From positions 62,001 through 126,000 of the forward strand of contig JAIXMF010000022.1 in assembly GCA_025201365.1 (NCBI GenBank): a DNA stretch of 64,000 bases, read 5' to 3'. Origin of the DNA: Syncephalis plumigaleata (Eukaryota; Zoopagomycota; Zoopagomycetes; Zoopagales; Piptocephalidaceae). Below are positions 1 through 61,890 of this stretch, piece after piece (positions within the stretch are counted from its first letter, which is position 1; every line of letters starts with the position of its first letter). Below the pieces are notes generated by a model that was not told where the DNA came from, did not search any database, and saw only the letters and a list, made by a program, of their open reading frames with translations. A program made the translations under genes and the position numbers.

Positions 1-2145
1 TCATTCTGATCGTAATAAATGAGGTACTAATTATGGTATGGCACACGATTAACACATGGCTGCGTATGCTAGTGGGCAAGTAAACATTTCGGTTACAACC
101 TATAGTATGCTAACCTTAGTATGACATACGATCCATGTATATTCCTAAATGGTAGTATGTAAGTAATCATTCTGACTGTAACGTATGCGATACTAATGAT
201 AATGTGACACACGATCCACGTATGTTTCTGTATGACAGTCTGTAAGTCATTATTATGACCGTAACGAACGAGATACTAATTGCATATGACACATGATCCA
301 CGGATGTTTCTGTATGATAGTGGGTAAGTTATCATTTTGATCATAATATATGGATGAGTACTAACTACAGTATGTCTTACAATCCTCGTATGCTCCTATA
401 TAATAGAGAGTAAGTCATTATTCCGATCGTAATGAACGAGATACTAATTGCAATACGATCCATAATCAATACGTGTTTTCGTATGATAGGATGTGAGTAA
501 TAATTCTGATCGTAATCTATGAATGTACTAATCATGTTATGACACACGATCCTCATACGTTCTTGTATGATAGGAAGTAAGTTATAAATCTAATTCAATG
601 TACAAGGTACTAATAATTACGATATGACACATGATCCATACGTATGTCCCGGTATGACAGTGTGTAAGTTATCATTCCATTTATAATCTATGGTGTACTA
701 ATTATGATTGCCACTCTATCCATACGTATATCTACCTATCACAGTGCGTAGGTTACCGTTATGATCGTAATGAATGGATGTACTAACTATGATATCGCAC
801 ATGATCCACATATGTTCCCGTATAATAGATCGTAAGTCATCATTCTGATCATAATATCAGGTGTACTAATCACATATACCATATAATTCACGTCTGCTTG
901 TGTATGATAGAGCGTAAGTAACCATTTTGACTGCAATGAATGAATGAGTACTAACTACAATGACACCAATCCACGTATGTTCGTGTATGATAGAACGTAA
1001 GTAATCACTCTAACTGCAATGAATGAGGCGCTAATTATAGTATACCACATGATTCACGTATGCCTGTGTATGATAGGGCGTAAGTAATCATTTTGATTGC
1101 AATAAATAAGGTACTAATCAAGCTATGACATATGATCCACGTATGTTTCTGTATGATAGAAAGTAAGTTACCACTCTGATTGCAATGAATGAGGTACTAA
1201 CTACGATATGACACATGATCCACGTCTGCTTGTGTACGATAGTGGGTAAGTTATCATTCTGATTGTAATGAATGAACGAGGTATTAATCACTCTATGACA
1301 CACGATCCACATATGTTATCGTATGGCAGTGGGTAAGTTACCATTCTGATTATAATGAATGAACGAGGTACTAATTATGCTACGGCACATGATTCACGTA
1401 TGTTTTTGTATACCAGCCTGTAAGTTATCATTCTAACTGTAATATATGAATGTACTAATCACGCTATGGTACATAATCCACGTGTATTCCTGTATGATAG
1501 GACGTAAGTCATTATTCTGACTACAATGAATGAATGTACTAATTGTAGCGTGGCTCATTACCACATACGTTTGTGTATGATAGAACGTAAGTAATCATTC
1601 TGACTGCAATGAATGAGGTGCTAACTACAATGTGACACATGATCCACGTATGTTCCCGTATGATAGAAAGTAAGTTATCATTCTGGCAGCAACCTATGAG
1701 ATACTAATGATAAAATGCCACATGATCCATATATGTTTCTGTATGATAGGTGGTAAGTTACCATTCCAATCGTAATGTATGGCGTACTAACCACAGTATC
1801 GGCGCATGGCCAACATACATTTGTGTATAATAGGAAGTAAGTTATTATTTTGGTTATAATATACGATGTACTAATGATAGTATGACACATAATCTCCATA
1901 CATTTATGGATAACAGTGCGTAAGTTACTATTCCCAATGATAACGTATAAGTGTATTGATACTAATACGGCACATGATCCATGCATATTCTCGTACGATA
2001 GAAAGTAAGTAACCATTCTGATCGTAATCTATGAAAGAGTACTAACTACAGTATGGCACATGATCCACGTATGTTTTTGTATTATAGCAAGTAAGTTACC
2101 ACTCTGATTGTAATGACTGAGTAAGGTACTAATTGTACTATGGCA
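1..2145 (+). repeat. Tandem array of 84-bp intron-like units, left block
   Basis: About 25 degenerate copies of an 84-bp unit lie head to tail. The common core reads like GTAAGT-ATCATTCTGA-TGTAATGAATGAGG-TACTAAT, then a stretch around CACATGATCCACGTATGTT, then TGTATGATAG. Copies clearly differ from each other, yet donor, branch-site and acceptor motifs are nearly invariant: one donor is GCAAGT (76), one GTGAGT (493), one GTAGGT (748), and the rest are GTAAGT. The units are homologous, so they arose by tandem duplication of an intron together with 3 nt of exon. Confidence 0.9.
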
Positions 2146-5100
2146 CATGATGCAACGCGGTAGCCCACGTTTACATTAATCCCAATTCGCGTTCCCATTT
2201 AACTATCTGTACTACACAAAATCTTAATAAAAAGAGAGCTCCTCGCCACATTATGTGGGAGGGACACCTACGTTTTCACTTCAAAAACCCTAGCGGCAGT
2301 TATCTTTATTCAGTGTGTGCTTATACTTGTTTCAGTGGTAGCAACGGAGGATACGCAACTTCAGTCTGCGTTAAATGAGCACCAGATATCAATCAGCAAG
2401 GGAACGCAGAGCCAATCAGTCACAGCAGTACCAGCGGCAGGATTCAACAGAGAATCAATCGTCAGATAATACAGTTGTCGAGCAACAATCACCACCATCG
2501 TCAGACACAGAAGTTTACTACGACACAGAGGCAGAACTTACAGTTACATACGACTCGGAAGAAGAAAATACGGCTACGACACCCCCATTAACAGGCACTA
2601 GCACGTACCGCGTCCCAAGTACACCATCATCAGAAGGATCAATCAACATCGACTTCCTCCCGGAGACTCACCGGGAATCAGACCTATCGCCTGCCCTAGA
2701 TCAACGGCTATTAACAGCGTCATCACACACATCATCACCAGTACCGCGCTCGTCGTCATCGCAATCGAACAACACCGAAATAGTAGACACGAACATGGGA
2801 GACCCAGTAGATATTCGTGACCTCATCCGCAACCTTATGCAGGAAGCACTACAGGATATGCGTGCAACCATCGCCCACGACATGCAAACGGAGTTACAAC
2901 CTATACAACAACAGTTAAACGACGTCACAAACCCTAATGCGGCGACACACGCAACAACCGTCGATCCCGCAACACCACAACCAATCAATCACGACGCGTT
3001 AGTCGCCGCTATCACGGCAGCAGTCAATGCTAGTAATCACGGACGTTTAGCCGGTGGCCACCGCGACTTGTGGTTATCGCCGAAGGCACCGGAATATCAA
3101 GGCCGCGACAGTGAGGTACCCTTCAATATATGGTGCAGGATGATATCGGACGAGGTCAGAATGTACGCCGATTGGACAGAGGAGCAGAAAGTGTGGGCAA
3201 TCACTCGACAATTGAAGGGTGAAGCCGCCACGTGGTATCAGTTCTATGCAGAACAGGCAGATGCCGGTCGCCCAGGTTACACGCCAATCACCACTTGGGA
3301 ACAGCTGCAAGCGGCGTTACGTAACCACTTCCATCCCAGGGAGCAAACACACGTGCTGCTAACTCGATTCGACAATCTCAGACAGGATCGGCGGCCACTA
3401 TCCGCGTACCTCACGGAATTCCAACAGCTGGTGATGCAACTTCCGGAACTACCCGAGGAACTCAAGATACACCGTTTCCGCAGCGGACTATCCATATCCC
3501 GCTGGCAAACAGAGTTCAACATCCGCAATCCGACCACATTGAACGAAGCCATCGAATTCGCTATGTACCTGGATTCAACACGATCCAACAACAATAGCAA
3601 CAACAACAACCGCTATAGCCGACTCACCTACCAACCGCAACGCTCCGCCCAACCACTACAATACCGCGGACCGCAGCCGATGGAACTCGACGAGATGGCG
3701 TTTCAACCGGGGCCAAACGACTGTTTTAACTGTGGCCAGCCTGGTCACCGGCGTTTCGAGTGCACCAATCAGTCGAGGTGCTACAACTGTGGTCGTCACG
3801 GTCATACGACACGCAATTGTACGCAGAATCGACCCCACGCGCACCGAGCACCCCCAGCCAACCGTCCCGCCGCCACAATGACACCTCGTCAAGCCCCCAT
3901 CGCACGGGCCGGCCAACGCGCAGCTCAGCCAGCCCATCGTCGCCCGCGGCTAAATAATGTTGAGTTCGGCGAAGGTGCGGTACCAACCGCCGACATCCAC
4001 GAATACGAAGCAGATGCGGAGGATTTTGCCGCCGACCAGTAAACACCGGCAGCTTACTGGTCCAAGCCCCCACCTTGCCGGACCCCCCTCTCCTCGCGAT
4101 CTCTGCACTGCTGAATTGTAACACACATTCCGACCCCTCTACCCACACACATCCCCTCCTCACCCTGCCATGTACTATCAATGGCGTTCCGGCACGCGCG
4201 CTCGTAGACTGCGGTGCCACAAACAACTTCATAGATACACAGCTAGCCCGCCAATTCCCCTCTCAATTCATGCCTTACAATTCCAACGGTCCTAAAGTTC
4301 GGTTAGGAGACGGCTCGGTCCGTCCGGTTACTGGGTTTGCAAAGAATGTCACAGTTAATATTAAAGATATTATTTTAAACCTTGATTTTGAAATTATGTC
4401 ACTGGGACGATACGATGCAATACTAGGTATGCCGTGGCTGGCCAAACACGACCCAGATATCGACTGGAAGAATCGTGTGTTACGATGCCTCCGTCGTGGA
4501 ATATCGGTAGTAGAAACTATACCGTCAGTGTTAGATGTTAAACTGTTGTCACCAAACGCGACGTTACCCACACGAGGTTCGAATCAAGCAGCTGGATACG
4601 ACCTCCACGCCGCCGAGGAAGTAACTATCCTACCCGGCCAATCGAAACTCGTATCCACAGGATTAGCAATGAAGCCACCCGAAGGGACATACATACGAAT
4701 TGCTCCACGCTCTGGCATGGCGGTTAAGCACTCGGTCGACGTGCTAGCAGGCGTAGTTGATGCAGACTACCGTGGCGAAGTTAAAGGTGTTTTAATGAAT
4801 CACGGCAGCGACGAGGTACACATCCAGAGAGGCGAACGTTTCGCACAAATCATTTGTGAGGAGCACAAGTCTCCAACAGTACGTCAGGTAACGGAACTTG
4901 ACGATACGCAACGCGGCCAAGCCGGATTTGGATCCACCGGCGTTAGGAAGGCACTCGACCAACCAACTGCGACGGCAAAAGGAATCGAAAGTGAGACACC
5001 CGTGGAACTGCGAACGATCGACGGCGAACCGTTGGACCTAGTGGAAGACACTCCAATGTTACTGTTTATAACGGAGTCTACCCCGACGACACCGCGTAAA

Positions 5101-8100
5101 GCTAAGATGGCCGATGACGTAACGGGCGACATTATAGAAGAATACGCGGACGTGTTTCCAGACGATCTCCCAGCGGGACTACCACCTCATCGTACCGTTG
5201 ATTTCGCCATCGACATCATACCAGGATCAACACCACCATCGAAGCCACCTTATCGACTATCGCAGGACGAACTGGAGGAATTGAAGAAGCAGTTAGACGA
5301 CCTACTGAGCAAAGGCTTCATCCAACCGAGCGTCTCACCTTACGGCGCGCCAGTGCTATTTGTGAAGAAGAAAGACGGTACTTCACGCATGTGTATCGAC
5401 TACCGTATGTTGAACGACATAACGATCAAGAACAAATATGCGTTGCCGTACATCGACGATCTGTTCCGACAACTACATGGCGCCAGGATATTCAGCAAGA
5501 TCGACTTACGCTCCGGTTATCACCAAGTTAGGATCAAGGACGAACACGCGGAACGTACGGCTTTCCGTACCCGTTACGGCCACTACGAATTCCGCGTCCT
5601 ACCGTTCGGCCTTACTAACGCGCCGGCAACGTTCATGCGCCTAATGAATGACATACTGCGGCCGTTGCTCGATAAATGTTGCGTTGTATTCTTGGACGAC
5701 ATACTCATCTATAGTAAATCCGAGGAGGAACACCGTCAACACGTGCGACAGGTGTTGCAACTGCTGCGCGACAACCAATTATACGCCAAGCACAGCAAAT
5801 GTACATTTGGCGCGCAACAGGTAGAATTCCTCGGGCATATGGTCAGCGGCGAAGGTATTCACATGTGTCACGACAAGCTAGCCGCCATTCGCAACTGGCC
5901 ACCACTCAGCAACGTACACGACGTTCGCAGTTTCCTAGGCCTGACCGGTTACTACCGACACTTCATACGGAACTATTCCAAGATTGCACAACCTCTCACC
6001 AACCTCACGAAAACCAATGTGCCATTCAACATGGAAGGAGGACCGACCGCAGCATTCGAAGAACTGAAACGGAGGATGATGGAAGCGCCAGTATTGATGA
6101 TACCCGACCCAAAGAAACACTTCATGGTTACGACGGACGCGTCAGACTTCGCGATAGGTGCCGTATTAGAACAGTCGGACGGAAAGAAGGCACGACCATG
6201 CGCGTACCTATCGCGCACGCTTACAACCGCAGAACGTAAGTGGCCAGTGTACGATAAGGAATTGTACGCCATTATGGAGGCGATCCGTGTCTGGGACGTC
6301 TGGCTAAAATGTGTGAAGTTCGACGTATACACGGACCACCAACCACTACGCTACCTTCGCAAGCAGACAAGTCTACCGAAACGACAGTCGGGTTATTTAG
6401 ACCTGTTAGCAGACTACGATTTTGACGTCCACTACAAACCCGGACGTAAGAACGTAGTAGCCGACGCATTGTCACGACAAGCGCCTCACAGGATGGAGCT
6501 AGCTAATGTGTCATCAGTGGTACCGGAAGGAGCATTGGTAGAGCGTATTCGAAAAGGCTATACATCGGATACGTTTTTCAGTACGCTAGCGGGAGTATTG
6601 AACGGAGAGGAAACAACAACAACAACCAGAGACCGCAAGTGGAAACGGCAGTTCAGACGAGTAGACGAAGATGGATTAATATACGAAATGCGGTCAGCCA
6701 ATCCACGATTATGTATACCGAAAGTCGGCGACCTACGCGTGCAATTGATCCGCGAACATCACGACGCGCCGACAGCGGGGCACTATGGAGTAGAGCGCAC
6801 AGTAGCACGATTGAAACGACTGTACTGGTGGCCCACACTCCGCGCGGATGTACAACGGTACGTGTTATCATGTGATAAGTGCCAACGGAACAAGTCACGT
6901 AATCGACACCCAGCAGGCCTACTAAAACCGTTGACAGTACCGGAACAGCGTTGGCAGGAAGTATCGATGGACCTAATCGTTAAATTACCAGCAACAAAGC
7001 GGAATGTAGACGCCATATTTGTTGTAGTCGACCGACTGACAAAACGAGCCCACTTCATGGCTACCAAGACTAGTGCGTCAGCCCGCGACTTAGCTCGATT
7101 ATTCATCGACAACGTGTTCAAGCTACACGGCATGCCAACGCGTATTGTATCGGATCGCGACACGCGCTTCATGTCACAATTCTGGAAGTCAATGTTCGAC
7201 ATATTGGGCACGCAATTACGGCCATCATCTGCATATCACCCACAAACGGATGGCCAAACGGAACGCACGAACCGCACGTTGGAAACGATGATACGACACT
7301 ACGTCAACTTCGCACAGGATGATTGGGATGAATGGCTAACCGCATTAGAATTCGCATACAACGACGCGGAACAAGAATCGATTCGCATGTCGCCGTTCTA
7401 CTGCGACACGGGACGCCACCCACGACGACCGGATGCGCTATCGCGCTCTTTCGACATACGAGGTGCAACAAACGTGGCGGAAACGGAGAATTTCGTAGGC
7501 AGAATGCGCGAAATCATCCTAGAAGCGCAAGCTGCAATGGCGGACGCCCAGGCCAAGCAAAAGTATTACGCCGACCAACATAGACGTGCCGAAGAATTCG
7601 AGAAAGACGATCGGGTATGGCTATCAGCAGAGAATATCAATACAGAAGCAAGTAAAGAACGACCAACACGCAAGTTCAACGCACTTTATTATGGACCGTT
7701 CAGAATCACAAAGAAGATCTCGACAGTATCGTACGAACTGGAACTGCCCGGAAACTGGCGCATTCATAACGTGTTCCACATATCCTTATTGAAGAAGTAC
7801 GTACCGGAACCGGAAGACATGCAAGGACGAGCGCCAAGTCGACCAGAACCGGAAATTGTCGATAACGAGGAGGAATACGAAGTAGAAGCAATATTAGAAA
7901 CACGTGGCACAGGACGAAAACAGCAATTTCTAGTCAAATGGAAAGGGTGGAGTTACGACGACGCCACCTGGCAAACGCGAGAAGACTTACGTAATGCGCC
8001 CGAAATCCTACGACAATTCGAACAAAGAAGAACAAGACGTAGCAGAAGAGTCGAGGTCGACTCTTTCAATAGGAGGGAAGGTGCAACGCGGTAGCCCACG

Positions 8101-8453
8101 TTTACATTAATCCCAATTCGCGTTCCCATTTAACTATCTGTACTACACAAAATCTTAATAAAAAGAGAGCTCCTCGCCACATTATGTGGGAGGGACACCT
8201 ACGTTTTCACTTCAAAAACCCTAGCGGCAGTTATCTTTATTCAGTGTGTGCTTATACTTGTTTCACATGATTTCATTACGTTCCCGTATATCAGCCTGTA
8301 AGTTATCATTCTGACCGTAAGGAATGGAGTACTAATACCAATATGTCATATAATTCACATATGCCTGTGTATGCTAGTGGGTAAGTTACTATTCTGACCG
8401 TAATGAATGAGGCACTAATCATAATACAATACACGTTAATTGAATGATAGTAA
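1..8453 (+). CDS. 3' part of a candidate gene made of single-codon exons
   Basis: I recognise no family. Twenty-seven consecutive units show the order GTAAGT, about 32 nt, TACTAAC/T, about 40 nt, TAG or CAG, then exactly 3 nt before the next GTAAGT. The 3-nt pieces lie at 73-75, 156-158, 239-241, 321-323, 407-409, 490-492, 574-576, 661-663, 745-747, 829-831, 911-913, 994-996 and so on to 2088-2090, then 8295-8297 and 8378-8380. Intron length varies (79-84 nt, one of 70), but the spacer is 3 nt in 27 of 27 cases. Read as codons, the first fourteen give WYSWRDECCISNGK. None of the 27 is a stop. The next exon, 8451-8459, opens with TAA TAA in phase. The start lies before the window. The visible peptide is rich in Trp, Cys and charged residues, so a small structured or secreted peptide is possible. 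That the units are spliced is inferred from motif conservation. Confidence 0.6.
2151..2334 (+). repeat. 5' LTR of the chromovirus
   Basis: 184 bp, begins TGCAACGCGG and ends CTTGTTTCA. It matches the copy at 8082-8265 with no difference that I can see. It contains AATAAAAAG-like poly(A) signal sequence in its middle. Confidence 0.95.
2336..2352 (+). promoter_or_regulatory. Primer-binding site
   Basis: TGGTAGCAACGGAGG starts one base after the 5' LTR. TGGTAGC is complementary to the 3' end of initiator methionine tRNA (GCTACCA), the usual primer in many Ty3/gypsy elements. Confidence 0.6.
2375..4042 (+). CDS. gag: Gag of the chromovirus
   Basis: 555 codons from the ATG at 2375. The N-terminal third is low complexity (Ser, Thr, Gln). 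The middle (about residues 235-400) is a retrotransposon Gag/capsid region, with sequence such as the Trp-rich stretch near 280 (TWYQFYAEQ). Two CCHC zinc knuckles follow at about residues 449-482 ([14 protein letters not shown] and [14 protein letters not shown]), and the tail is basic. It would form the particle and bind element RNA. Confidence 0.9.
4075..8094 (+). CDS. pol: Pol of the chromovirus (PR-dUTPase-RT-RH-IN-chromodomain)
   Basis: This frame stays open for about 1,339 codons and begins without its own ATG, so expression through gag is likely, as in related elements. Domains in order: aspartic protease ([10 protein letters not shown], near residue 45); a complete trimeric-type dUTPase (about 155-285) with all five motifs ([39 protein letters not shown]); reverse transcriptase with FLDDIL near 540; RNase H ([10 protein letters not shown] near 685); integrase with an HHCC finger (about 892-938) and a D,D-35-E core ([17 protein letters not shown]); a GPF module; and a C-terminal chromodomain ([15 protein letters not shown], near 1290). 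The end of the frame overlaps the first bases of the 3' LTR. Confidence 0.93.
8082..8265 (+). repeat. 3' LTR of the chromovirus
   Basis: 184 bp, same as 2151-2334 by eye. It is preceded by the purine-rich tract AGGAGGGAAGG and followed by the target duplication CATGA. Confidence 0.95.
8271..8450 (+). repeat. Tandem intron-like array, right block
   Basis: This block continues the same array after the retroelement. It holds the end of the interrupted unit (acceptor CAG at 8292-8294), one full unit (8298-8377) and a shorter 70-nt terminal unit (8381-8450). Without the inserted element and one copy of its target duplication, the interrupted unit is 84 nt, which is normal for the array. Confidence 0.9.
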
Positions 8454-8735
8454 TAAGCGGTAAGTAATAATCCAACAAATAATTATACCCATACTAATCC
8501 ATTATGATTACAGGACAAGACAAGGACATCATCAAGTAGATATTATAGGTATTCAAGTCAAGAATGGATTGGTGCAAGACCCTTTAGTGTCCACGCTATT
8601 CAAGTCATTATTCCTTGGTACAACAACTACAAGTATATCTACAAGTCTCTTACGTCTATTCATCCATGGTCCTATTACATAAATATCAACTAATGGCTGG
8701 TTCATTGATTGAATAAATATGTAATGCTATAGGGC
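8454..8735 (+). other. Putative 3' UTR of the single-codon-exon gene, with one intron
   Basis: After TAATAAGCG (8451-8459) comes one more intron-like segment, 8460-8513. It has a GTAAGT donor, a CATACTAAT branch site and an ATTACAG acceptor, but its body is not related to the array unit. The following stretch has no array similarity and ends near AATAAATATGTAATG (about 8710), a plausible poly(A) region. The sequence therefore behaves like the end of a transcription unit reading left to right. Confidence 0.4.
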
Positions 8736-9280
8736 ATTCTTCTACTCTATTCATCGTCCGATTCTTTCTTCTACTCCAACTATGCTTATTACTTATCGTA
8801 TGCCATGAATGAGCATTTTATATCGAGTGAGGTCATCGAGTATTGCTTACACGAGTGCTATTTCATCACATATGTCAGTATCCTTAGAACTATGCTTCCT
8901 ACATATTGTCATTACACTTGGATTACAGCATGTCATAACTATATCTAGTGTTGCAGTATTGCTAAGAACAAAGACAACGTCTACGTTTCTATACTTTAAT
9001 GCTTAAACGATACAACAGCATGGAAGCGAGTGATGACAACAGCAATCAATGGGAGTGGTGAAAACACGATTCGATACACATACAAGTGATTACGGAGGAC
9101 GTAGTCAAATGTGAAAAGAGAAAGAGAGAGAAAGAGAGAGAGGTAATTGCAACGGATACGTATTCTTCAATACTAATAGTAACTGTATTAATAAAATGAA
9201 TCATTTAGTCAGCAGGATAGAAAGATGTGAATGCTAATAGTAAATGCAATTGTATAATAATTAATGAGCAGCCTACAATA
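8736..9280. other. Intergenic region between the array gene and the 7-TM gene
   Basis: No gene supported. The two flanking genes converge here. It holds a GA-rich microsatellite (about 9115-9142) and no recognisable RNA gene or mobile element end. Confidence 0.6.
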
Positions 9281-17784: not shown

Positions 17785-20700
17785 CTAGTAGCCGATCTTT
17801 ATCGGCGCATTATACCTTTTCAGCCGGTTGCCGGATACCGAAGTTTTTAACCTGGTTCCATCTAGTTCCGCAAGACCGTATACTCCTTTGTTCGGTCGTT
17901 CCACTACTACATACGGCCCGACCCATCTATCCTTTAGCTTCCGGTCTAACTTCTTCATTGGTCTGGTATCCAACATCAAGACCATGTCTCCTTCTTCGAG
18001 CGGTTCCTTCCTTAAAGTCTTCTTACTGTCATAATACCGCTTGTTATATTCTCTTGACCTATCGAGCTTTACTCCCGATATCTCCCTCACCCATCCATTC
18101 CTCAATAGTTGCGTTGCCCGAGCAGCTATCAATTCTGATGTCGTCATCTCCTTCTTCCACTCTATCCCCATCCACGTCTCTTCTTCTAAATCAAAAGGCA
18201 GCGCGCACTCCTGTCCATATACCAGTCGGTACGGACTTTGCTGAGTTGTCCTTTTCGTTGTGATCCGATCAGCCCATAATACCGCATGTAGGTATTTTGG
18301 CCAGTTGTCCTTGTCGTCACCAACTACTTTCGCTAAACCTTGAATAATCTCCTGATGTCCTCTCTCCACCATCCCGTTCGCTTGCGGATGATAAGCTGTC
18401 GTCAAATTAAGCTGAATTCCATTCGCCATCGCTAGCTCCTTCATCTTCTTCACGTTCAACTCGCCTCGATCTGCCACCACCTGTCCAGGTATGCCGAATC
18501 GACATATGACGTCCTCGTACAGGAATCTGTAAGCCTCCCCGGATGTCTTGTCGGTAAGCGCTCTCGCCTCTACCCAGCCACTAAAGTCGTCTCTAGCCAC
18601 GGCAAGATACTTCTCACCCGTGGTAGCTGTAGGAAATTGTACTAAGTCAAATCCTATCCTCTTGAATAGTGTCGAACCTATAAATGGCCGTAATTCCTCC
18701 ACTTGCTGATGTTGACTCCTTCTTTGACACGCATCACACGCGCTAACCACTTCCTTACAAGTCTCGTACATCCCTTTCCAATGAAACCGATCACTACACA
18801 ACCTGTACGTCGCTTCCACTCCTCGGTGTGCGAACGGACTCTTCTGATGCACAGTGTTAGCTATTCTTGTTTGCTCTTCTTCCTTAATGATGGCCCTCTT
18901 CGGCATCCCACTCTTCGTTCGTCGGAACAATAGCCCGTTGTGCAGGAAGTACTTCCTCGCCTGCGCTATGACACGTCTACGTTCCTTCGGCTCCATCCCT
19001 TTGTGTAACTCCCCCTTCTCAAGATAATGAAGCAGGTAATAAAAAGGGTGATCGCTGTAAGTTGTCCCCACACTACCTTGCTCAACTCTTTCTTCCATCA
19101 TTCCGTCTTCGCCTCCCACTTCTTGTATAGAATATACCCATAGTGACTCGTCCTCTCCGTCGTCGGCATCACTCAGCTCTTCTTGCTCCGAGTACGTTCG
19201 GCTCAACGCGTCAGCCACTACGTTCTTCTTCCCCGGCACATGACGTATTCCGAAATCGAATAACGTAAGGTAAGCCACCCACCTACTGGCCGCGTCATTC
19301 GGTAGGTCGGGCTTCTGAAGCATCCCGATCACCGGTCGTGCGTCGGTTTCTATCACAAATCGTACTCCATTCACATATTTACGCATCTTCTTCACCATTT
19401 GGTATAGACCAAACAGCTCTCTCTTGATTTGCGCGTACCTTCTCTGTGTTGCGTTAAAGAGGCAACTCTCGTATCGCACGGCGTAACGCTTGCCCTCCTC
19501 GTCTTCTTGCCCTAGTACCGCTCCTGCTCCCACCGGACTCGCGTCCACGGTGAGAATGAGTGGCCTGTCCTCGTTTCCGTACACTGGAGGTCTAATGACA
19601 GGTTGACTGCTAAGACTGTCCTTCAACTTGTCAAATGCATGTTGTTGACCTTCGCCCCAATGAAAACATACGCTCTTCTTCTATAAGTGATACAACGGCT
19701 CCGCGATGATCGAGAAGTTAGGCACGAACACACGATAAAACGCGCAGCATGCTACAAATGACCTAACATCTTTCTTCGTCCTGGGCACTGGCCACTTACG
19801 AATCCGCTCTACCTTGTCAGGCGTAGTAGTTCGCCCTTCCCGCGTACACTGAAAACCCAATACCTCGACCTCAGACATGCCGAAATAACACTTCTTCCCA
19901 CTGACTGTCAGTCCGGCCTCCTTCAGCGTGCTGAGTACATTCACTACATCCTCGACGTGTTCGTGTACGAACTTTCGAACACCCTTCGTCACCTCGGTGG
20001 AGTCCGCCACGGTAGGTCCCTTGATTACCCCGTCGTCGACGAATATGGCCACCTTCTCTGGAATGTATCGTTGTAACACATGATTCACTATCCTCTGGAA
20101 TACTCCTACGCTGTTGCACCATCCCATAGGTAGTCTAGTCATGCGGACTAAACCTATTGGCGTACTCAGCGAGAATATATCGCGATCCCTGCGGTCAACT
20201 GGTATCTGATCGTATCCTGAATATAAATCGAACGTCGTAATGATAGATCTTCCCGACACGTCCTCGGTCAACTCCTCACTCAACGGCGGCGCATTCGCGT
20301 TCTTCACGGTAACGGAATTCACTTGCTGCAGGTCTTGTATGAATCGCAACTTCGACCTGTCCTTCTTGGCGATAACAAACCAACGATTGCTGTACGCGCC
20401 AGTACTCGGCTCGATAATCCCGTTGTCCATCTTGTCCCTCAGTAACTTCACTACCTGGTCAAACATAGCTCGCGGAAGTGGAATGGACTGTTGTTGCCAC
20501 GGCGTATGCGCGACCGTAGGTATTCTAACGGGCGCCTGAAACTCCGGCTTGACCATGCCCATCTCACTGTCGTCGAACGCGAAGGCTCGATCTACCTCCT
20601 TCAACCGATCCTTGAAATGCTGTATCTCCTCCAGGGATAGATTCCCGTCACCTATCTTCAATTCGTCGATCCTTTCCTCGGTCAATCGTATGTTGTCCTT

Positions 20701-22800
20701 CGTTACATTGATCGGACTTCGCTCCTCGGTTTCGGCACTCGGCACCGGTACAGACACTGGCAACTTCTTCTTACCCACTGGCTTGTACTTTGCCGCATTC
20801 ACCTGTCTCAACGTCACCGCTCCCATGACTTCTTCACTATTGTCCACAGCAAGGTTCACCATGCCCAGCTTGTTCACCATGCCTGACAAATTGACTCTAG
20901 CATTTGTCGTCCGTATCCTCGCCGTTGGCGCCGCCACAAACTTCACAACCTGACCACCATCGCGAAGATATACCCATGAACGATCTTGTTCACGTCTCAC
21001 TTCCCATTCCGCCAACTCCAACCACGGTATACCCACTAGCGCGTCGAATGGTATGTCGTCGATGACCAAAGCGTTGGCATTATGAGTTACGCTGCCAACC
21101 GTGATAGGTACACCTCGGCACAATCCTCTTGCCTTCTTGGTGTCTCCTGTAGCACTGGACATACCCCATTCTCCTGTACTCTCCAACGGCCGATTCACCA
21201 CCCTGTCGTAGAGCCTCCCGGAGATAATCGACATTTCTGCTCCAGGGTCAACAAGGATTTCCACCGTCGCGTGCTCGATCTTTCCCGACACTTTCGGTGT
21301 AGGCCTCGCCACTATGTCCTCACTATTCACAGAAGTTCCATCCTCACGCATAACCACCCGATTCACCATAGGGTCTATGGGCATCTTTTTTCGGCTCACG
21401 ATCTGGTTGACTCGCTTCCTCGCCGTCTCCGATATTCCCATAAATTCTTTCATCGTTAGTTCGACACGAGTCTCCGACAGAACCTTCTCGATTACTTGAT
21501 CTTGATCGACCTCTTCTTGTATGGGAGCACGGTACCTGAAAGTAGGGGGCTGTCGTTCCTTCTTCTCAGTCATCGTACCGGCATTCTTCTTCTCCGCGAT
21601 TACTACAGTGTCGTCTGCCGATTCTTCCGTGATAACTCCTCGCGATTCCGCTCGAGTGCCCACACGAGCTCTCTTCTGATTCACCTCACCATAAATTATA
21701 GGTTGAAAATCCGCGGTGAGTTCTATCGGTTCCTCGGCTGGCTGAGCTTCAGTGTCTTCCCATACGACCTCGTACTCAGGCTGCGGTGCTTCCCCTCGAA
21801 ATGTAATCAGATTTACTTGATTCCTCGTGGGAGCTATCTCCTCTACCAACTTCTTCATTCCGCCGTTTCCCGTGTTCAACGGCACCAACTGTCCGTTCGG
21901 ATATGTCACCTTCCCAGCGGCGGTCTTGACCAGCCCTTTTCCGATATCTTCGGTAAGTCGATCACATCTAGCCTTCATATGGTCGGTAGAATCGCAATAC
22001 AAACATCTTGCAACCCTGGCTGTCGTTCGCACGCGTTCGTCGGTCCGGTTCTCCACTAACGAAGCCAATCGTGTGATCATAGAGTACAGATCTTGATACC
22101 CCGTTGGACCTTCTTCCTTAGACACAGTTGGGGCTTTCTTCACTTCGACGTTCCCATCTTCCATCAACTCGGACAATGACGTTCCGACTTTCTTCTCTCG
22201 ATACCAAATCTTCTCTAGCTCGTCTATTAAAGGTAGTAGCGATAGATTGTTGCTATCCAAAGCCACAAGCACCTGGCGTTTCAGATTCGTGCTCAGCATT
22301 CCAAACAACCTTTCCGCCTTCATGGTCGTTGTCATAGCTCCTACACAGCTGGCCATAATCTGGAATTTCTCAAGGTAAGCTGGCAAATTCTTGTAGTCGA
22401 TTCCCTTGCTGAGGAAATCCTCGAACATGCCTTCAGGCGTTGTTGTGCTGGCGTTTGTCTTGTATACTCTTGTAAGTGCTTCCTTCACATCGGTCCACCT
22501 CCCATCCTGTGCAGCAGGGTAGTGTATAATAAAGTTTTGAATTTCCTCGTCCACGTAACTGTTTAGGCAGCGAATCCTCATGCTAGCGTCCCATCCTAGT
22601 TTGTCGGCGTAGCTGTCGTACTGCGATAAAAACTCGTGTATGTTTCCTCCTTCAAATCTCTTTGGTTGAGTATACGCTCCAGAACCGTATGAGCCACTCC
22701 CCGCATTGGGCTCCATTTGAGGTACGGGTTGGTTGACTCGTGTCATGGGGAGTGGAGTCTCTCCGGTCCCGGATGTATTATTCTGGGTAGTGCTCGACAT
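17785..22800 (-). pseudogene. Gag-Pol coding region of the second Ty3/gypsy element
   Basis: Read on the minus strand from the ATG at 22800, inside the 5' LTR. Order: Gag with a coiled, low-complexity N-terminus and one zinc-knuckle-like motif (CLYCDSTDHMKARC); aspartic protease (ILVDPGAEMSIISG and LVGIPWLELAEW); reverse transcriptase with DLYSGYDQIP and the variant active site FVDDG; RNase H (LTVDASPVGAGAVL); integrase with HHCC finger (ending CDACQRRSQ) and D,D-35-E residues (VADRGE, HPQANGMVERGH); and a GPY-type tail (RWVGPYVVV). Gag and Pol share one frame over most of the length. About one interruption is present, so it is listed as nearly intact. Confidence 0.85.
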
Positions 22801-23027
22801 AGCTTCGCTCACGTATAGTATCTCGCTGTTGAACTCTCAACAACCTCTTGCACTCGCAATAACACTAGACAATAAAACGATATGATAACTCGAACGATGA
22901 TTCTTTTATTCATAATAATGTGTACTGGTATTTATACTAAAGCTTAAGTAGCGGAGCGCTACAAGCTTATCAACTTTTACCCAGGTATTTATCTATATTC
23001 CAGCGGCGACCGGGTTATAGTCCCACA
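22718..23027 (-). repeat. 5' LTR of the second Ty3/gypsy element
   Basis: 310 bp. On the minus strand it starts TGTGGGACTATAACCC and ends AACCCGTACCTCA. The gag ATG (22800) and its first codons lie within it. A TGG that could begin the primer-binding site follows two bases after the LTR, which would place it inside gag. Confidence 0.93.
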
Positions 23028-28577: not shown

Positions 28578-30206
28578 TTAGAGTTCACCATATTCATGTA
28601 TAATTTCCACACGACTGTTAAATGAATTATATATCATACCAAGCATTGCATAAGTATCCAATCCTTCGTCCATATTTGATACTTCCAATTCGCGTATTGT
28701 TTCTTTTGTATTGATGTCTACAAGCAATTGGCTGCACCCGCCCTTAAGATCTCTTACATCAAAAATATAGAGATCTCCAATAATATGTTTGATGGACTTT
28801 GTACCCGGTATTCGTAATACTTGATCGTCATTGTAGGATAAGTCTGTCCATACTTTTGTTGAGCTGGACTCGGGTATTGAATAATCGCATCCAGCCCTTA
28901 ACAATGGGGTAGGTATATGTTGGTCAATTATGGTGTAGCAATTACGTGTAGTATGGCTTTGACCATTGGATGTTATACTATGTATTACGTGTATAGCATA
29001 ATCAGCATAATCATGTAATCTGATGATCATATGCGAATCGTATGAACTAAATATTTCCAGCCCCACATTCGGTACCCTCTCAGGTAGTTGAAGCCAGCCA
29101 CTTTGCAATTGTATAACAGTATTATTGCTCGAGAACTGGTATAATGCCCATTCAAGACGGCCCACATCATCATCGGCTAGTCTTGCCGTGTATACTATTG
29201 CTGTATTATTGGTTGTCTTATAGAAACATGACGTCTCCCATGCATCATCAATGCTTCCTTGACACATGATACTATTATCTATATCGAATACCATTACATT
29301 CACTAAATTCATTGGTTATTAGCACTAGTTATATGGTATCATTGTATAGGTATCATTCTTACAAATAGGTGAAAACATGTATTGCAGGTATCCCTTGTTC
29401 ACTAATAATACCCATTTCCCCTGAATTGTCTTCACTTCATATGGTGCTGGAATGGCAGATGTGGTGATAACACCACCATGTTTGCGAGAGAGCATTCTTA
29501 CATAATAGTCGGTGTCGCTCTCGATTACAAAAGGAAAAACAACTATGTAATGGTCGCCCGTAGCATATTTACACCATTTTTCATTACCGTTATCCAGTGA
29601 AAGAACATTTGGCGATGTGGAGAATGTGCTGTTATACACAGTATTGTTACTTGATCTCAGATTTGGATGTGGCAAATATTCTAGAGTATAATTATGAATT
29701 GGTGTTTCGTCTGAACGATCTTGCTGCTTAATAAATATCCGATTATCATAACCATATCTACGGTACCATACTCCATCCTTATCAGCTTTCATATCGATAT
29801 TTGTGATATTACATCGTCCATATCGCCAATTATTCTCGGTGCTCACTCGTCGACGATATGTGTTGTACCAGTCCACATTCTCTAGTAGATCGGCTCGTTT
29901 ATCCAATGTACATGGATTGTTGACATCCGTGCGTACACACCACAATACGAAATCCATTTCTTTAACATAATATGCTCCCGATAGGAAATCACTATGGTAT
30001 AGTGCTTGCCATAATATTGGGTCATTTCGAATACTGTTTCTTAACGAGTGACAACATGCTGATAAACGCAATAATGCGGTATGACCAAGTAGACTACGGA
30101 AGACACGCTGATCATGAAATGGAAGACTATTCAGACAAACTAGTAATCTACAAGACAAGTTGGAATTACTCGATACTTCAGTAGTAGTAGAAGTAGTAGT
30201 AGACAT
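28578..30206 (-). CDS. F-box protein within TIR element 2
   Basis: The start ATG is at 30206; a longer reading would need a non-ATG start. One 60-nt intron is inferred (GTAAGA donor, CTAATAAC branch site, TTTAG acceptor, about 29303-29362); it joins YMFSPI to LNVMVFDIDN in phase, and the same intron with GTAAGT is present in the paralogue at 60 kb. The product is about 517 residues. After a Ser/Thr-rich start, an F-box is seen at residues 24-75: SLPFHDQRVFRSLLGH, then LLRLSACCHSLRNSI and LWQALYH. The rest has no motif I recognise, though repeated VWTDLSYNDDQVLRI-type strands could form a beta-propeller-like domain. It would bind Skp1 in an SCF ubiquitin ligase and recruit an unknown substrate. 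It may be cargo or a captured host gene. Confidence 0.7.
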
Positions 30207-30329
30207 AGTGGAATGGAATAAGAAAGACAATAAGGGGTAGAGAAATACGATGACGTTATTTTAATCAAGAATACACAAATAAATCATATGCAAGTGTGGA
30301 TAACAATGAAGCATGGTGTTCAAGTCTTT

Positions 30330-60257: not shown

Positions 60258-61890
60258 TTATAGTTCACCATACTCTTCTATCACTAGCGCCTGTCTGTCA
60301 TAAGACCTACGTATCATACCAACCATTGCACAATTATCCGAGCTCAAGTTCATTTCTGGTAGTTCCAATTTGCGTATTGTTTTCTTTGTACTGATATCAA
60401 CAAACAATCGTTTGTATGTATGATTAGTTCTTTTTATAGTAAAAGCATAGATGTCTCCAATAATATTGCCAATGGAAGCTGTACGTGGCATTCGTAATAC
60501 TTGATCGTCATAGTAGGATAAGTCTGTCCATACTTTTCCTAGTCTGGAACTAGACGACCCATGATTGTATCCAGCCCTTAACAATGAGATAGGTGCTTGA
60601 TGCCTAGACATCTCGTAGCAATTACGTGGAATATGGCTTTGACCACTGGATGCTACACTATGGATTATGCATGAATAATAAGCAGGATAACCATCTAATT
60701 GGATGATTATATGCGAATCGTATGAATTATACGCATTTAGCCATATGTGTGTTATCTCTTCAGGTAGTTCAAACCAGCCACTTCGCAATTGTACAACAGG
60801 ATTATTGTTCGAGAACTGGTATAGTGCCCATTCAATACGATTTGTATCATCATTGACTCGCCTTGCCGTGTATACTATTGCTGTATCATTGGTTGTTTTG
60901 TAGAAACATATCGTATTCCATACACCACCAGTGCTTCCTGGACACATGACACTATTATCTATATCGAATACCATTACCTCGACTAAATTCATTGATTATT
61001 AGTACTAGTTATATTACAGCATTGCATAGTTAGCACACTTACAAATTGACAAAGACAAGTTTGACTTTTTTAATTCATGCACTAATAACGCCCATTTCCC
61101 CTCAATTGTCTTCACTTCATATTGTACTGGAACATCGAATGTAGTGAAAATACTGCCAGACCCGCGAGAAAGTATTTCTACGTTATAGTTGGTATTGCTC
61201 TCGATTGGATCAGGGGATACAGCTATGTAATGATCACCCGTAACATATTTATGCTGTTTTTCGCTATCATTATCCAGCGGAAGGAAGTTTGCCGATGCGG
61301 AGAATGTATTGTCATACACAATATTGTTGTTTGACCTAAGATTTGAATGTGGCAAATATTCTAAAGCATAATTGCGGCGCAACCTTGATGTCACGTCTGA
61401 GCGATCTAGTTTTGTGGTATATATACGCTCATTCCTAAAATCACTGTAGCAAGTTAGTTGACCCTCATCATATTCCATATCGATATGTAGGGTCCTGCAT
61501 CGTCCAAATCGCCAATTATTCTCGGTGCTCACTCGTCGACGATATACGTTGTACCAGTCAACATTCTCTAGTAGATCGGCTCGTTTATCCGATGTACATG
61601 GATTGTTGATATCCGTGCGTACACACCATAATACGAAATCCATTTCTTTAGTATAATAGGGTCCCAATAAGAAATCCCTATGGTATAGTGCTTGCCATAA
61701 TAATCGTCATTTCGAATACTGTTTCTTAACGAGCGACAACATGCTGATAAACGTAAAAGTCGATATGACCAAGTAGACTACGGAAGACACGCTGGTCATG
61801 AAATGGAAGACTACTCAGGCAAACTAGTAATCTACAAGACGAGTTGGAATTACTCGATATTTCAGTAGTAGTAGTAGTAGTAGTAGACAT
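60258..61890 (-). pseudogene. F-box paralogue in TIR element 3, frame broken in the F-box
   Basis: Collinear with 28578-30206. The ATG at 61890 and the first part of the F-box (SLPFHDQRVFRSLLGH) are kept, then two one-base shortenings relative to the sister copy (near 61702 and near 61762) break the frame within the F-box. The remainder is open and well conserved. The single intron is retained with a better donor (GTAAGTGTGC, then TACTAAT and TTTAG). The downstream conservation suggests recent loss, or sequencing errors, since homopolymer slips appear elsewhere in the window. Confidence 0.75.

Follow-up and report, generated by a model that had tools for sequence, protein, structure and literature searches.

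Can a peptide be encoded by exons of a single codon each? This question is raised by a stretch of 64,000 nucleotides from Syncephalis plumigaleata, a fungus of the order Zoopagales (bases 62,001-126,000 of contig JAIXMF010000022.1, here C135, in an assembly of 32.6 Mb and 383 contigs), referred to below as the window. The window begins inside an array of intron-like units separated by triplets. The array gene to which these units belong is called the index gene, and its upstream part lies in locus L009. An earlier note on this DNA had read the array as one peptide gene in which each codon is its own exon; the peptide gene of one-codon exons is retained here, and the one gene gives way to a family of many arrays. 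The index gene is very probably a protein-coding gene of a large S. plumigaleata family in which, as judged from sequence, nearly all mature-peptide codons form exons of their own. This reading is grounded in the anatomy of the genes, their frame, the conservation of their codons, the joining of a relative's leader exons in retrocopies, and overlap with public gene models.

All 27 units described in the earlier note were found. Each has a TAG or CAG acceptor, exactly 3 nt, and a donor, which is GTAAGT in 24 units and GCAAGT, GTGAGT or GTAGGT in one each. The units are spaced 82-87 bp apart, the retroelement gap aside, and none of the 27 triplets is a stop codon. The final thirteen triplets translate to WWPDNKVECKQPW, and the following exon, TAATAAGCG (8451-8459), holds the stop. 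The units had been called successive; all are present, but the array is split by a 6.1-kb retroelement at 2151-8265. Bases 1-2152 contain 25 units, and 1,000 first-order Markov sequences gave a mean of 0.12 and a maximum of 2. When gaps of 0-12 nt were tried in the strict pattern [TC]AG...GTAAGT, a gap of 3 gave 22 matches and every other gap gave 0.

Upstream extension, which the earlier note had proposed as a check, showed that the array is preceded by a start codon and an exon for a signal peptide. The index gene starts at C135:60723, so that the window begins approximately 1.28 kb downstream of the start. Its 94-nt exon 1, located in L009, encodes MKFSAVTAIAVAVVALTSLVAVEASPALVRR plus one base, and the product of this exon is predicted to contain a signal peptide and a dibasic RR site. 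The leader exons that follow are 3, 3, 3 and 5 nt long in the best parse, with some acceptors ambiguous (9 nt possible for 3), and would convert phase 1 to phase 0. Beyond the leader, the gene would continue with one codon per exon, introns of about 80 nt and near-consensus splice signals up to the stop. The array comprises 37 consecutive one-codon exons, 10 before the window (CHTDQAPHYQ) and 27 inside it. In total, 42 introns are predicted ahead of the stop and one more in the 3' untranslated region (UTR), and the predicted product has 73-77 residues, the range reflecting the ambiguous leader acceptors. The array introns have the GT donor, branch site, AG acceptor and spliceable distances of spliceosomal introns, and the open frame from start to stop and the codon constraint are those of coding exons. 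A second copy of the index gene is present on contig C6 (L015); the second copies of array genes are probably the other haplotype.

The genome contains many such arrays. A unit pattern in which 19 bases are specified and up to 3 mismatches allowed has 1,671 genome matches (reversed control 28) and recovers 531 of 789 parsed units; provided that the catch rate is equal elsewhere, the assembly would hold approximately 2,500 units, counting second copies. The leader peptide has at least 150 genome matches, among them intronless relatives and second copies, and a 3'-end pattern with up to 3 mismatches has 99 (reversed control 1). The pattern GTATGATAG...GTAAGT, with the gap left free from 1 to 12, has 647 matches (control 15). 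Among the 100 of these that were listed the gap is 3 in 99 and 8 in one, and none of the 99 three-base gaps is a stop. Viral and prokaryotic collections yielded 32 and 2 stretches, respectively, with a single pattern match and none with two, which we take as chance.

The family statistics are those of a frame-blind parse of loci L011-L058 and the index gene, in which introns were scored on donor, branch site and acceptor, exons of 1-40 nt were equally allowed, and chains of at least 5 introns were kept. It gave 44 chains (0 in reversed sequence) with 808 internal exons, of which 789 are 3 nt long. The remainder are ten of 9 nt, five of 12, two of 11, one of 2 and one of 40. Two-codon exons are also present in the family; strict one-codon structure holds for nearly all exons and not for a few of 2, 5, 6, 9 or 12 nt. 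Among the 587 triplets of 25 non-redundant loci, six second-copy loci having been removed, there are no stops where base composition predicts 19.9. The two shifted readings of the concatenated triplets contain 2/554 and 54/554 stops and are not a clean control; stop frequencies at fixed intron offsets (8/596 to 321/604) were left out of the argument. In all eight genes parsed frame-free, two of which are copies of one gene, exon 1 ends in phase 1 and the leader brings the frame to phase 0. Within the unit, conservation is lowest in the triplet (0.04-0.12 bits per base), and the flanking splice signals reach 2 bits. The donor is GTAAGT in 495 of the 587 units, TAG or CAG is present in 582, and the median distances of a TACTAAY-like branch site are 32 nt to the donor and 48 nt to the end of the intron, figures that are not independent of the search because the units were picked by these signals.

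Protein searches returned matches from S. plumigaleata or from records without a species name. Eight metagenome and European Nucleotide Archive (ENA) proteins (P0017-P0024) match the leader part of the query, 43% of its length, at 47-59% identity, and suggest from sequence that the family is older than S. plumigaleata. These eight look like exon 1 with intron read-through, or like intronless relatives, from related organisms. The extent of the family suggests that gene annotation can miss a large group of secreted proteins.

Constraint, retrocopies and public gene models

Six pairs of copies could be compared. In their introns 427 of 17,373 aligned bases differ, in their triplets 2 of 615 (Fisher p 7e-5). 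Both triplet differences fall in one codon (V to L), and 204/205 codons are unchanged. Nearness to splice sites could explain some of this excess of conservation; the splice signal does not itself fix the triplets, because they vary freely from unit to unit.

Intronless relatives with the leader and 3' UTR of array genes also exist. The 3' UTR intron is missing from them, and in L033 the join is exact. L031 and L033 resemble an array gene from approximately the same presumed 5' UTR base on, and their promoters are unlike. When four array genes were compared with L026, similarity was at least 0.67 over the 430 bp upstream, except that in three of the four a single 60-bp stretch falls to 0.48-0.58. 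A similarity that starts in the 5' UTR and leaves out the promoter marks mRNA-derived retrocopies, which L031 and L033, at least, appear to be. L033, of which L043 is a near-identical copy, holds CGTCGTGCTGTTGTCGAACGCCGTGCTC unbroken, which corresponds to the end of exon 1 of L023 and its leader exons (CTG, TTG, TCGAAC, GCC, GTG and CTC) with six introns gone. L031 carries the same joins minus one base.

The intronless relatives observed are L031, L033, L043, L045, L047, L048 and L049, and in all of these except L031 the frame overruns the usual stop into the 3' UTR. A genome search with the protein of an intronless relative retrieved itself and two copies only. Two further intronless genes, at about 1634 (- strand) in L020 and at 101-532 in L044, have the family leader and long, coiled-coil-like mature parts, with weak, sub-threshold Pfam matches. 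The L020 gene adjoins an array gene with helical-looking codons. It and another intronless gene, L032, share part of the TATA region and may be ordinary genes.

Public protein models overlap the predicted arrays. P0001 contains, in order, 38 of the 42 array exons predicted from L059, and P0005 contains 40 of the 45 predicted from L028. A chain of 38 exons of this kind seems unlikely to have come from a gene finder without RNA.

Several points weigh against a coding array. The chains used to train the site models had themselves been detected with a model derived from the window. The frame-aware parse used the frame to choose among parses; it was relied on for the index gene, L015 and L026 only, because it was wrong at L011, L014, L020, L025, L028, L037, L038 and others. 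The frame-free parse of the leader worked for 8 of 25 leaders only. The nominal probability of 2e-9 for the lack of stops is too optimistic because units within a gene are duplicates and not independent. One pair of copies, the most diverged, contributes 252 of the 427 intron differences (the remaining five pairs give 175/14,237 for introns and 0/504 for triplets). The joins in the retrocopies are those of leader exons of L023-type genes only, with no array proper. No contiguous genomic copy of two array peptides was found, no Pfam match above the curated cut-off was obtained for ten proteins scanned (array peptides and relatives), and a PDB search with the index peptide gave no match above the cut-off; the function of the product is for these reasons a matter of inference. 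As to the public models, P0001 omits four whole array exons and P0005 five, P0001 lacks a 2-nt exon and runs beyond the predicted stop, and the leader of P0005 differs from the prediction. P0003 contains seven L026 array codons, with one skipped, and then continues into an intron. None of these three models displays the evidence on which it was built.

Within the arrays, P0001 and P0005 drop entire exons only, always in frame, and this could reflect the behavior of the genes themselves. The product would then be real and its splicing largely stochastic, in-frame skipping of exons giving a cloud of related peptides per gene, as would be tolerated by a frame that the loss of a 3-nt exon leaves intact. 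A mapping program that loses 3-nt exons would, however, yield the identical pattern, and the near-complete agreement of codons in paired copies suggests that most codons matter. We consider largely stochastic splicing unlikely.

Far less probable is that the array is a non-coding satellite that arose from one intron, its triplets being leftover spacers and the whole being removed in one piece or never transcribed. Repeats of about 83 bp that are homologous to one another make up the array, and descent from a template with a 3-nt spacer would by itself hold the spacing; such spacers should, however, be as free to change as the rest of the unit, and in the paired copies (2/615 against 427/17,373) they are not. 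The triplets also lack stops, encode two adjacent cysteines in 13 of 25 loci, are preceded by a signal-peptide exon and followed by a stop in frame, and are present in public protein models. Similarly improbable is an array that is spliced into untranslated RNA or whose triplets are recursive-splicing steps adding nothing to the mRNA: the juxtaposed acceptors and donors do look like ratchet points, but the spliced retrocopies keep the leader triplets, which a ratchet would not add, and coding constraint, leader and stop are all present.

Splicing, products and diversification

If the array is coding, as we favor, its splicing is likeliest to be stepwise, since the sites on either side of a 3-nt exon are too close for joint binding. 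The spliceosome would remove the introns of the array singly, every splice appending one codon and uncovering the next GTAAGT for the growing exon, and by this route the acceptor and donor around a triplet would never be occupied together. Skipping of a codon exon preserves the frame, so that such an error would lose one residue. A single intron retained after a codon brings an in-frame stop inside it in 461 of 587 cases.

The decoded peptides fall into more than one type. The CC doublet occurs in 13 of the 25 non-redundant loci, and in 12 aligned loci, which were picked for CC, the doublet and a C farther along never vary. The decoded peptides include CPPGEFWDPKDQNCCFYPPGGDKLCRA, CKPDETFYDGFGGGHCCKKEPVGDCR and CKASFTHKWDDELKKCC. 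Of the 12 loci without CC, L020 and L034 are helical-looking by eye and L027 is G- and A-rich. The paralogues L036 and L038 have a long stretch in common, with synonymous changes such as CGT/AGA. S. plumigaleata is a parasite of moulds, and the mature product is plausibly a peptide, in many cases rich in cysteine, that is secreted and serves in parasitising other fungi.

Where units are flanked on both sides by similar introns, they have the same codon at a frequency of 0.66 (108 pairs; the base rate between genes is 0.03); intron and codon therefore duplicate together. In similar units within a gene, 37/69 triplet bases are identical against 0.90 for introns, and 6/23 pairs encode the same amino acid; between genes the values are 206/294, 0.92 and 59/98, respectively. 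These pairs were picked by intron similarity, which inflates the contrast between codons and introns. Among the units of highest similarity in different genes, 12 of 22 single-base changes are synonymous (5.9 expected); at the lowest similarity threshold this excess is gone (73/318, 87.3 expected), and the pairs are not independent. In L027, L023, L016 and L036/L038 there are units with very similar introns whose codons differ at 2-3 bases (for example GCC/GGA, CGT/AGA). Selection or a codon-exchange process may lie behind these divergent codons.

It could well be that the genes diversify by gain and loss of intron-plus-codon cassettes, with the frame never shifted. More tentatively, the arrays may serve as a codon-cassette system, in which recombination or exon skipping adds, drops or swaps single residues in frame and a mycoparasite thereby diversifies its secreted peptides. 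In similar units of one gene the codons have diverged more than the introns, and paired copies keep their codons.

Map of the window

The coordinates of the index gene within the window are collected in the table. The retroelement that splits the array has identical long terminal repeats (LTRs) of 184 bp at 2151-2334 and 8082-8265 and a target duplication CATGA. Its gag occupies 2375-4042 and its pol 4075-8094; the latter includes a chromodomain and a dUTPase domain, which sits between protease and reverse transcriptase. The element is absent from the second copy, L015, and is therefore probably a recent, heterozygous insertion.

Table. Index gene features in the window (window coordinates).
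Feature	Position	Strand	Remarks
Array part 1, 25 single-codon exons and introns	1..2090	+	sequence
Part 1 codons 1-8	W73-75 Y156-158 S239-241 W321-323 R407-409 D490-492 E574-576 C661-663	+	
Part 1 codons 9-17	C745-747 I829-831 S911-913 N994-996 G1077-1079 K1160-1162 W1243-1245 W1330-1332 P1417-1419	+	
Part 1 codons 18-25	D1501-1503 N1584-1586 K1667-1669 V1750-1752 E1834-1836 C1917-1919 K2002-2004 Q2088-2090	+	
Intron between codons Q and P, 6.2 kb	2091..8294	+	donor GTAAGT at 2091, acceptor CAG ends 8294
Ty3/gypsy LTR retroelement	2151..8265	+	inside one index-gene intron
Array part 2, single-codon exons	8295..8380	+	CCT (P, 8295-8297), TGG (W, 8378-8380)
Last coding exon TAATAAGCG	8451..8459	+	stop codon 8451-8453, then 3' UTR begins
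3' UTR intron GTAAGT...TACTAAT...CAG	8460..8513	+	sequence
3' UTR exon, end approximate	8514..8740	+	AATAAA 8712-8717; aligns with 3' UTR of L026 and of retrocopies L031 and L033

Elsewhere in the window, two retroelement-like frames at 17785-22812 (-) contain, by eye, reverse transcriptase and integrase. Two pairs of frames, at 28578-30230 (-) and 60258-61667 (-), appear by eye to be mutual paralogues; the frame at 29325-30230 has no Pfam match.

Comparison with known systems

The literature search, which covered one-codon and 3-nt exons, microexons in fungi, and the introns and secreted proteins of Syncephalis, with few subscription papers or preprints in its scope, yielded no description of such one-codon exon arrays. 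Lone exons of 1-3 nt are known in other systems, and the small size of the exons is to that extent not unique. In Arabidopsis a 1-nt exon is reportedly spliced into a message, and plants are reported to have microexons of 15 nt or less. Exons of one to a few nucleotides are thus spliceable, as the array exons require; these tiny exons are single ones in otherwise ordinary genes and form no run that spells a protein. Recursive-splicing ratchet points resemble the array in the juxtaposition of acceptor and donor and in stepwise removal. A ratchet point leaves no exon, unlike the array, where 3 nt remain in the predicted message.

Two families of secreted proteins are closer in design. The micro-exon genes (MEGs) of Schistosoma, as described in PMC10526429, contain 10-20 short exons, which measure 6-81 bp (3-81 in its abstract) and in most cases 15 bp, and introns of 0.1-5 kb. 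They have in common with the array family secreted products with a signal peptide, which for the array family are predicted, many tiny exons that are mostly multiples of 3, and variable parasite proteins. The array genes have, in architecture, the symmetric micro-exons of a secreted variable protein, with secretion predicted. Unlike MEGs, they string together as many as about 40 successive exons, each of exactly 3 bp, their introns are about 80 bp and homologous to one another, and they belong to a fungus. No sequence relation to MEGs was found in Pfam and protein searches, a result that proves little because MEGs are so divergent. The bicycle genes of aphids have, according to PMC9168663, approximately 17 exons on average, with internal exons in phase 2. 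By the same account they share with the array family divergent secreted candidate effectors and many small exons of one phase; the array exons differ in being phase 0, of one codon each.

If the reading is correct, exon size has been pushed to one codon across whole mature peptides, which tests the limit of stepwise splicing. With the arrays it would then be possible to study the recognition of tiny exons, to test whether skipping in frame makes clouds of peptides, and to ask how gene structure itself can ease protein evolution. In architecture, the family would work like an extreme micro-exon gene, at the far edge of the design represented by the MEGs and the bicycle genes.

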